From assembly GCF_004402535.1 (NCBI RefSeq), contig NZ_SOEY01000018.1, forward strand, positions 1 to 64,000: DNA of 64,000 bases. Direction: 5' to 3'. Below, piece after piece: positions 39,866 through 41,965 of this stretch; positions within the stretch are counted from its first letter, which is position 1, and the number at the start of each line of letters is the position of its first letter. The stretch comes from Cryobacterium glaciale (GTDB lineage Bacteria > Actinomycetota > Actinomycetes > Actinomycetales > Microbacteriaceae). A program made the position numbers and the translations under genes. Below the pieces are notes generated by a model. It was not told the DNA's origin and did not search any database. It was given only the letters and a program-made list of their open reading frames with translations.

Positions 39866-39904
39866 ATGACCGCGCGCAGGAGCCCCGCCGGGGGGCGGCA
39901 ATGA
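39866..39904 (+). CDS. 12-residue upstream ORF, possibly leaderless
   Basis: ATG 39866 encodes MTARRSPAGGRQ and stops at 39902-39904, overlapping the next ATG (39901) as ATGA. TAGCGT lies 6 nt before the ATG, so the transcript could start at or near the start codon. Likely role: translational coupling of the downstream membrane-protein gene. Confidence 0.4.
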   Translation: MTARRSPAGGRQ

Positions 39905-40554
39905 GAGCGCGCACCGCGTTCGGTGTGGCGCGCCTGGGTCTGACGGCGGCGGGACTGGTCGCGCTGATCGGCTATTTTCAGTACACCCTCGGGGTGGCCA
40001 CCTTTGCGATCGCGAACTTCTTCAGCTATTTCACGGTGCAGAGCGCCATCGCGTCAATCTTCGTCTTCGTGACGGCCGCCGTGGTGGCGTTACGACGGCC
40101 CACCGACCCGGCCTGGCTCGACATGTTGCGGGCCATGGTGACGACCTACATTCTGGTCTCGGGCGTGGTCTACGGAATCATCGTCTGGCAGTCTTCGGGG
40201 GCAAACTACTCGATCGAGGTGCCGTGGTCTAGCCAACTGCTGCATTTCGTGATTCCGACCTGCGCCCTGATCGACTGGATCGTCGACCCGTTCAAGGCCC
40301 GCCTGCCGTGGAAATATCTCGGCTGGGCCATTGTTTTTCCGGTGTTCTGGCTGGTCTTCACCCTTATTCGCGGACCGATCGTTGGGTGGTACCCGTACTT
40401 CTTTCTCGACGCCCGCCAGGTGAGCGGCCCGGGCGAGACCGTGTTTTATTGCCTGATCATCGTGGCGATCATCACCGGAATCGCGGCGCTGCTCACCTGG
40501 ATCACGCGAGTGAAGCGGATGCCGCGCCACCTGCTTCCGTCTTGGCGCGCCTGA
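39901..40554 (+). CDS. Pr6Pr family membrane protein
   Basis: 217 residues with six hydrophobic segments. Family marks include NFFSYFTVQSAIASIFVFV in the second helix, ILVSGVVYGIIVW, QLLHFVIPTCALIDWIVDP with the conserved His and Asp, and a cytosolic basic tail (RVKRMPRHLLPSWRA). Pr6Pr (FAR-17a/AIG1-like) members are of unknown function in bacteria; eukaryotic relatives hydrolyse fatty-acid esters of hydroxy fatty acids using conserved Thr and His. Confidence 0.87.
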   Translation: MRARTAFGVARLGLTAAGLVALIGYFQYTLGVATFAIANFFSYFTVQSAIASIFVFVTAAVVALRRPTDPAWLDMLRAMVTTYILVSGVVYGIIVWQSSGANYSIEVPWSSQLLHFVIPTCALIDWIVDPFKARLPWKYLGWAIVFPVFWLVFTLIRGPIVGWYPYFFLDARQVSGPGETVFYCLIIVAIITGIAALLTWITRVKRMPRHLLPSWRA

Positions 40555-40555
40555 G

Positions 40556-41965
40556 CTATTCGTCCGGTACAGCGAGGAACGGCTCGAGCGCGGTGAGTGC
40601 TGCGGCCAGAAACTCGTCGTCGTCGAGTTCGCTCAACCTGGTTGCATTCTCGGCGGCGACCAGTCCCATGAGGATGGGCTCCCCGGTGAGCGGCATCATG
40701 TTGATCCACACCGGAAAGTCGGCGTCTTCGCCGACGATGGTCCAGAGCCGGGCAGCGGTGTCCCAGAACGGCACGTCGAAGCGCAGCCAGACCTTGTCGA
40801 CCACGCCCATGCCCAGAGCCGCGATGGCACCCCGGTGGGCAAAGGGCAGCGCGGGCGAAAACTCGATCGCCGCAGCCTTCAGTACGCCGAGCGGCACCGT
40901 CACGATTACCCGATCTGCCGACAATGACTCGCCGGTGCCGAGCCGCAGGCTCACACCACGGTCGTCGTGGGCGATGCGGTTGACCACGCTCGAGAGCAAC
41001 AGTTCGAGGCCCTCGGCGTCACTCGTCAGCAGGGTTGAGTAGCTGCCCACCACGATCTGATCATCGTCGGCGCTCGCAATGTCAGTCGTGTACCAGGCCG
41101 ATTGCTGGCTCGGCGTCGCCCCGGTTTCGACCTTGAGCCTGGTGGCGATTTCGTACTCGAGCCAGTCGGCATCCGACAGCCCTTCGGCGTTCGGGGTGGT
41201 CGACAGGCCGGCTTCGCCCGAATCGACGAGGGCACGTTCGACCGAGACGTCCTGCTGCTGATCGGCCGCCCATTCGAGGGCGCCGGCGACGGCCTGGGCA
41301 CCGAGCGGTGACACTTCGACGACCAAACCGGCCCGGGTGCGCACCTCGGGCGTGCGCACGAACGGCAGGAGTGTCACTCCGAGGGCGGTCAGCTCGTCAT
41401 GCAGAAAATTTTCGGAGGTGCGGTGCACGAATGAGGGACCACGCTCGATCGGAAATGGCCAGTCGCCGCTGACCGTGTCGATGCGCCCACCGATACGGTC
41501 GCGGGCCTCGATCACGACCACAGTGAAACCGGCATCGACGAGCTGGCGGGCCGCGATGATGCCGGCAATACCGGCACCGACGACGATGATGCGTTCGCCG
41601 GGCGCTGCGACGTCCTGCACCTGGCTGGCCGCGAGCAAGCCCGACGCGCGCGCGCCCTGCACGGTGCCTGGCTCATCCCCCGCGGTGGCTTCACCGGCGA
41701 AGAACACCCGGGCGTCGATGGCCTGACCGAGGGCCGTGCGGTGCTCCGGCGTGGCGCCGACGGCGGCATAACTGAAGGAGCCCCGGGAGAATGGGTCGGT
41801 CGACCAGTTGGTGCGGGAGACCATGAGGGGCTGGGGCACCAGTGAGGGCGTGAGCGTGGTGGGCGAAGCGGATGGCGTCGGCACCGGCGCCGGCGCCACG
41901 CACGCTGCGAGGGCCAACACGGAAAAACCCGACGCCGTGCCGAGCAGAAAAGTGCGCCGCTTCAC
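40556..41965 (-). CDS. Flavin amine oxidase-like protein, exported lipoprotein, circularly permuted
   Basis: 469 residues from GTG 41965. KRRTFLLG plus a lipobox ending at Cys22 (LALAAC) mark a Tat-like exported lipoprotein. Residues 52-116 contain NWSTDPFSRGSFSYAA, RVFFAGEAT and GTVQGARASGLLAA, which in monoamine oxidases form the very C-terminal FAD segment. Only then comes the Rossmann motif (IIVVGAGIAGIIAARQL, residues 126-142) and VVIEARDRIGGRI, followed by the normal order through VIVTVPLGVLKAA. The protein ends at LEPFLAVPDE, just where a standard enzyme would continue into the W-DPFSRGS segment. All parts of one oxidase are present once, in permuted order. Substrate unknown. Confidence 0.85.
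   Translation of the reverse strand: MKRRTFLLGTASGFSVLALAACVAPAPVPTPSASPTTLTPSLVPQPLMVSRTNWSTDPFSRGSFSYAAVGATPEHRTALGQAIDARVFFAGEATAGDEPGTVQGARASGLLAASQVQDVAAPGERIIVVGAGIAGIIAARQLVDAGFTVVVIEARDRIGGRIDTVSGDWPFPIERGPSFVHRTSENFLHDELTALGVTLLPFVRTPEVRTRAGLVVEVSPLGAQAVAGALEWAADQQQDVSVERALVDSGEAGLSTTPNAEGLSDADWLEYEIATRLKVETGATPSQQSAWYTTDIASADDDQIVVGSYSTLLTSDAEGLELLLSSVVNRIAHDDRGVSLRLGTGESLSADRVIVTVPLGVLKAAAIEFSPALPFAHRGAIAALGMGVVDKVWLRFDVPFWDTAARLWTIVGEDADFPVWINMMPLTGEPILMGLVAAENATRLSELDDDEFLAAALTALEPFLAVPDE

Follow-up and report, generated by a model that had tools for sequence, protein, structure and literature searches.

A conserved, circularly permuted flavoprotein of the amine oxidase fold with a Tat-type lipoprotein signal in Cryobacterium glaciale and other Actinomycetota

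The gene and its predicted product

The window analysed here, a stretch of 64,000 nucleotides from Cryobacterium glaciale (contig NZ_SOEY01000018.1, positions 1–64,000), carries on its reverse strand a gene for a flavoprotein of the amine oxidase fold and, on the opposite strand, a convergent gene for a membrane protein. The features of this locus, in window positions, are listed below.

40556..41965, reverse strand: whole permuted flavoprotein gene, 469 aa plus stop, GTG start; all 57 genomes searched in the genus have collinear homologues
41900..41965, reverse strand: Tat-type lipoprotein signal, residues 1–22; RR at 3–4, lipobox LAAC, Cys22
41609..41836, reverse strand: displaced segment, residues 44–119 (W-DPFSRGSFS, FFAGEAT, GTVQGARASG); Pfam PF01593 positions 365–442, LSD2 residues 700–773
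41594..41608, reverse strand: short linker, residues 120–124, from the old C-terminal helix (102–119) to the first Rossmann strand (125–129) according to DSSP of the AlphaFold2 model
40571..41593, reverse strand: Rossmann (GAGIAG, 130–135) and substrate domain, residues 125–465; Pfam positions 1–366, VIA-align to LSD1
40793..40795, reverse strand: Lys391, aligned with an LSD2 lysine by phmmer
39901..40554, forward strand: Pr6Pr family membrane protein, convergent neighbour (NF038065, E 3.5e-37)

The N-terminus, MKRRTFLLGTASGFSVLALAAC, consists of a twin arginine, a hydrophobic stretch and a lipobox cysteine, the signature of a Tat lipoprotein. An earlier sequence-only reading had proposed a Tat-like lipoprotein signal, and this proposal is upheld by the twin arginine at positions 3–4 and the lipobox LAAC22, signatures that are conserved: Cys22 is invariant in all 59 rows of alignment A1, and a twin arginine with a lipobox occurs in 127 of 132 permuted sequences (a simple pattern without chance control). 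These features suggest that the permuted protein is exported and located at the membrane. A Pro/Ser/Thr-rich linker separates the signal from the displaced segment, whose motifs W54-STDPFSRGSFS, FFAGEAT (88–94) and GTVQGARASG (100–109) all precede GAGIAG (130–135). In usual amine oxidases this segment is the C-terminal end of the FAD-binding domain, whereas here it is N-terminal to the Rossmann motif. The core (residues 125–465) contains EARDRIGGR besides GAGIAG and the substrate domain. With its stop codon just one base away from where the convergent gene ends (40554), the gene leaves no room for a second in-frame copy of the segment after the core.

Swapped order of the amine oxidase profile and the predicted fold

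In a search of the genome, positions 365–442 of PF01593 matched 41618–41851 (E 8.5e-17), in the N-terminal part of the protein, and positions 1–366 matched 40571–41569 (E 9.7e-46), in the C-terminal part, so that the profile is complete across the two pieces with almost nothing doubled. An hmmscan of the permuted protein gave Amino_oxidase 220.4 bits against a curated cut-off of 19.8, again in two stretches, the better one being 1–366. The protein thus scores as a member of PF01593 and has both the Rossmann GxGxxG and the FAGE/GA-SG segment, but the usual linear order of the family, Rossmann first and FAD segment last, is not found, since 365–442 precedes 1–366. The Pfam break fell at positions 363–366 in all six permuted proteins scanned, and in a standard-order relative (L149) positions 1–442 matched in one piece. 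With phmmer, residues 124–461 aligned to residues 337–692 of the LSD2 chain and residues 43–116 to residues 700–773 (E 7.9e-8 for this second piece). The three alignments listed were all to LSD2, each with the swapped split; the LSD1, PAO, yeast FMS1 and MAO A chains matched in two or three stretches, and MAO B in one. The motif order described by the sequence-only reading, with the FAD segment (residues 52–116) ahead of GxGxxG (130–135) and the chain ending where that segment would come, is therefore borne out by the sequence and by the swapped Pfam halves. Its claim of a circular permutation also stands, as two profile methods agree and the same order is conserved in well over a hundred genomes. 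Judged from sequence, the gene is confirmed as a real natural circular permutation of the amine oxidase fold, in which the last structural piece has moved to the front of the chain.

AlphaFold2 modelled the whole chain from the 59-row alignment with a mean pLDDT of 89.8 and a pTM of 0.86, confidence being low only in residues 1–23 and moderate to about residue 40. Residues 41–120 had block mean pLDDT values of 86–98 within the whole-protein model, whereas the displaced segment folded alone, from 32 of the 59 rows, reached a pLDDT of 66.4 and a pTM of 0.42, a comparison confounded by the smaller alignment. The poor lone fold against the good fold in the whole chain would fit a segment that needs the core. 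VIA-align superimposed residues 122–467 of the model on residues 277–738 of LSD1 (Z 26.3, r.m.s.d. 2.4 over 335 residues), the best match by fold to a solved structure, and also matched maize PAO (Z 24.6). This aligner is bound to sequence order, and its listed alignments cover only residues ~110–468, leaving the segment out. Homology and the AlphaFold2 confidence together suggest that residues 52–116 sit beside the FAD, in the usual C-terminal place.

By sequence, the best match to a solved structure is LSD2 (E 1.3e-39). LSD1 and LSD2 (KDM1A and KDM1B) have the same Rossmann, substrate-domain and FAD-segment motifs as the permuted protein, which differs in having the last segment first and an exported lipoprotein signal. 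The SWIRM domain of LSD1/KDM1 was not among the 19 Pfam families matched at E up to 1, no other extra domain matched, and the 341-residue core leaves little room for a Tower insertion like that of LSD1. The Amino_oxidase match and the fold match to maize PAO likewise relate the protein to the polyamine and monoamine oxidases of PF01593, from which it is distinguished by the permuted order and by the absence of the covalent-flavin cysteine motif from the segment. Among its nearest standard-order relatives are seven LSD1-like amine oxidases (L150, L151, L154, L155, L167, L169 and L195) from Actinomycetota and a Synechocystis plasmid. These have, by eye, twin-arginine N-termini with a lipobox-like cysteine, but the Rossmann motif comes first and the segment last. 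Such standard-order proteins are perhaps the exported stock behind the permuted form.

Distribution, cut site and origin of the permuted order

The sequence-only reading had asked whether the same order occurs in other Microbacteriaceae, and it does, in at least 132 of 398 genomes of the family. In a protein search, all 57 Cryobacterium genomes matched in one frame and without a stop from query residue 29 or earlier through residue 412 or later, at 52–100% identity. Across the family, 158 of the 398 genomes matched at E 1e-30 or better, and by hand count at least 132 had a match running in one piece from query residue 17 or earlier past the Rossmann motif; four of the 132 matches listed read through an in-frame stop, and one further match is partial. 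A scan of genome contigs, in which the best 80 of 356 relatives gave 79 loci, recovered the gene in Clavibacter, Rathayibacter, Leifsonia, Herbiconiux, Microbacterium, Naasia and Frigoribacterium, together with more distant members (L102, from IMCC26207, L118 and L129). An order-wide sample gave 14 matching genomes of 297 at 1e-80, all in the family of Cryobacterium itself. In a phylum-wide sample, 25 of 396 genomes gave a match at E 1e-40, which had permuted coordinates in 11 and covered the core only in 14, and the permuted gene is also present in some genomes of three other actinobacterial classes: that of genome G632 (13 of 296 genomes match at 1e-60; 10 permuted, 3 standard), that of G606 (4 of 66 at 1e-45; 2 permuted, 2 standard) and that of G587 (7 of 139 at 1e-40; 4 with permuted coordinates).

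Open reading frames of the loci were classified with two profiles, one for the segment and one for the core, built from A1. This yielded 132 unique permuted and 23 unique standard sequences, to which later loci added two permuted ones. Of 17 plasmid records with matches, four (H1, H3, H9 and H14) were examined, and all four are in standard order. Three apparent permuted junctions were rejected: L202 holds a single gene in standard order, L203 a pair of adjacent standard genes, and L204 showed a short core piece only. Isolated segment reading frames in L152–L154 are situated at the edge of their loci and appear to be the tail of an adjacent standard amine oxidase. In the complete genome of Naasia aerilata (L136), a frame change inside the segment splits the permuted gene over two reading frames, through either a sequencing error or pseudogene formation. 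A metagenome-assembled contig titled Bifidobacterium breve (L098, 5777–7273) is probably mis-binned or mislabelled, because its permuted gene is 88% identical to that of IMCC26207.

The position of the cut is also conserved. All 132 permuted sequences have 5 to 11 residues between the segment and core profiles. The end of the core profile is reached in 130 of these, of which 102 stop within 10 residues beyond it, and the longest tail among the 130 is 43 residues; the permuted sequences of L158 and L164 are shortened by a frame change or stop, and L198, found later, has 109 residues beyond the core that appear unrelated. In standard relatives, 3 to 15 residues separate the core and segment profiles in 21 of 23; two distant standard proteins of L002 have 78 and 89 residues there, and the core profile stops early in them. 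The permuted chains end within this standard linker (...LRAAYG, ...LRRIV, ...LRTIYS, ...LEPFLAVPDE), and the segment start in many of them corresponds to the PxP of the same linker. The new termini had been placed near a surface loop by the sequence-only reading, in agreement with our finding that relatives with both ends intact are cut at the linker between the core and the last segment of standard proteins. The old termini adjoin in the amine oxidase fold, and a linker of a few residues would close them with the fold kept. The last ~75 residues, which would complete the FAD site, now follow the signal peptide and precede the Rossmann domain, and the chain stops in the loop that formerly came before this last segment.

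Trees were built with core and segment set in one order. The first contained 63 rows (43 permuted, 20 standard), near-copies and permuted rows with a core below 250 residues having been dropped, and placed 37 permuted rows in a main starred clade (99/94) with six other permuted rows among the standard ones. The order label needs 4 changes on this tree, and a tree constrained to a single permuted clade is worse by 40.5 log units (AU p 0.022). A second tree of 43 rows (25 permuted, 18 standard), from which the two long L002 rows and most Microbacteriaceae were removed and to which L198 and L199 were added, needs 6 changes (AU p 0.007 for a single permuted clade), and a core-only tree needs 5 (AU p 0.013). 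Permuted and standard relatives thus interleave, and a single permuted clade is rejected in each case, on trees that have overlapping row sets, many weak inner branches and long branches, and whose starred branches force only 2 changes.

Fusion of two adjacent amine oxidase genes through a fault of sequencing or assembly, one of the refuting explanations named by the sequence-only reading, is hardly credible. A small change could join such genes, since neighbouring standard-order amine oxidase genes with one in-frame stop between them occur in the genus, but an artefact is excluded by the recurrence of this order in all 57 Cryobacterium genomes, at 79 loci of named assemblies and in further actinobacterial classes, with dN/dS values well below 1. 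The history of the order is less clear. Because one single permuted clade is rejected, the order change may have occurred, or been reversed, more than once, and a history of more than one event, with the permutation either repeated or reversed, is likely though not certain. It is quite possible, though somewhat doubtful, that the permutation happened once and was followed by reversals to standard order, or that an ancestor carrying a copy of the segment at each end lost one or the other, rather than that the permuted order arose independently several times. A single event would be a simple explanation for the linker cut shared by members whose ends are intact, and it accords with the 2 changes forced by the starred branches; the rejected clade speaks against it, a reversal would require a second rearrangement, and no protein with the segment at both ends, the expected duplication intermediate, was found among the reading frames scanned. 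Duplication and fusion, the route suggested by the sequence-only reading, is plausible only. In one Cryobacterium genome (G049, L203, 1020–3572), two standard-order amine oxidase genes lie side by side on one strand and in one frame with a single stop between them, and the source genome has a similar neighbouring pair (C13:27680-30167). A pair of the L203 type could be an arrangement from which such a fusion starts, and serves as an illustration only, since the first tree places these genes (L002) far from the LSD1-like group.

Cofactor site, active site and possible function

All 59 rows of A1 share FFAGEAT, the Rossmann glycines, EA and GGR without change, and most GxGxxG and FAGE/GA-SG columns are invariant or kept in at least 90% of the 59 rows. 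Lys391 and Thr101 align with a lysine and a threonine of LSD2 in the phmmer alignment, and we take this LSD2 lysine to be the flavin-N5 lysine of amine oxidases. At the position in the last segment that is presumably the aromatic-cage tyrosine of catalytic amine oxidases, LSD2 has a tyrosine where the C. glaciale protein has Phe64. The C. glaciale protein therefore has the N5 lysine and a replaced cage tyrosine, and it keeps His181. Among the permuted sequences of the family, the N5 lysine is present in 45 of 115, the cage tyrosine in 6 of 115 and His181 in 22 of 115, compared with 21, 22 and 16 of 23 standard relatives, respectively. The lysine is found in 37 of 37 Cryobacterium sequences and in 8 of 78 others, being lost from 70 of the 78 (near-copies included); in A1 it occurs in 15 of 59 rows, namely the C. 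glaciale protein, 10 Cryobacterium rows and four deep rows, and in none of the other 44. Permuted members outside Microbacteriaceae, sorted by hand into groups of 8 and 11 sequences, have the lysine in 8/8 and 8/11 (two gaps), the cage tyrosine in 8/8 and 11/11 and His181 in 8/8 and 8/11. The dN/dS ratio of the C. glaciale gene was 0.07–0.14 against ten near relatives and 0.31 against two more distant Cryobacterium relatives, and 0.07–0.27 in 14 family pairs outside Cryobacterium, where the gene is under purifying selection despite the loss of the lysine.

Gene neighbourhoods were compared using simple gene calls and single-linkage similarity clusters, the NCBIfam scan being applied to the C. 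glaciale Pr6Pr protein only. Relatives of the Pr6Pr gene occur in 49 of 66 loci (65 loci and C. glaciale), with 47 entries at position +1, immediately downstream and on the opposing strand; the neighbour that ranks second occurs in 14 loci. No Pr6Pr relatives were found beside the four deep loci L098, L102, L118 and L129. We rejected a reading of the neighbourhood as an operon, as only the convergent Pr6Pr gene is widely conserved, and no paper naming Pr6Pr was found in the open-access literature. Its association with the permuted gene may be functional, making Pr6Pr a possible partner, or plain synteny.

Taken as a whole, the data are best explained by a natural circular permutant of an LSD1/polyamine-oxidase-like fold that would act as a Tat-exported, FAD-dependent and probably oxygen-using oxidase, a reading we hold with good confidence. 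The protein would fold with non-covalent FAD in the cytoplasm, be exported by the Tat route, be lipidated at Cys22 and work on the outer face of the membrane; FAD binding, oxidase chemistry and location are inferred. Whether much of the family carries out amine oxidase chemistry is doubtful, since three residues, the N5 lysine, the cage tyrosine and the histidine, are lost there; their poor conservation across Microbacteriaceae argues against one uniform amine oxidase function. As the N5 lysine is not kept, the substrate or chemistry has probably changed in most Microbacteriaceae outside Cryobacterium. The best reading is of an exported FAD-dependent oxidase whose active site was probably rebuilt within Microbacteriaceae.

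The main rival is a non-enzymatic FAD protein in Microbacteriaceae outside Cryobacterium: in most of the family at least, the permuted protein would no longer be an oxidase but an exported FAD-binding sensor, electron carrier or structural protein that kept the cofactor site and lost the amine oxidase active site, perhaps with Pr6Pr as a partner. Invariant FAD motifs alongside a lysine missing from most family sequences outside Cryobacterium, continued purifying selection there and the frequent Pr6Pr neighbour all point this way. We nevertheless consider it somewhat unlikely, given that the C. glaciale protein retains Lys391 and His181, that permuted members outside the family mostly retain the tyrosine, histidine and lysine, that a few family sequences outside Cryobacterium still have the lysine, and that the convergent Pr6Pr gene is not co-transcribed and may be adjacent by synteny. 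Moreover, some flavoprotein oxidases function without an N5 lysine. A combined scenario, which we judge unlikely, is that an exported subfamily was permuted several times independently at the same loop in Actinomycetota and that in most Microbacteriaceae the amine oxidase active site was then lost, the protein turning into another kind of conserved, FAD-dependent surface protein with a genetic link to Pr6Pr.

In large, well-studied enzyme families, natural circular permutants are, to our knowledge, uncommon. No published permuted flavin amine oxidase was found among the titles and beginnings of abstracts listed from the open-access literature; the title of one paper reports a permutation in a flavoprotein domain, which is said to have a different flavin-binding fold and not to belong to the amine oxidase family. 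The proteins described here are a real, conserved and naturally permuted subfamily of a well-known flavoenzyme fold. They show that the fold of the drug targets MAO and LSD1 tolerates a cut in the loop ahead of its final FAD segment when a few residues bridge the old termini, and they offer protein engineers naturally tested termini. Repeated permutation at one site becomes open to phylogenetic study. For Microbacteriaceae, they constitute a conserved exported flavoprotein that profiles would annotate as an amine oxidase, even though the catalytic lysine is missing from most sequences outside Cryobacterium.
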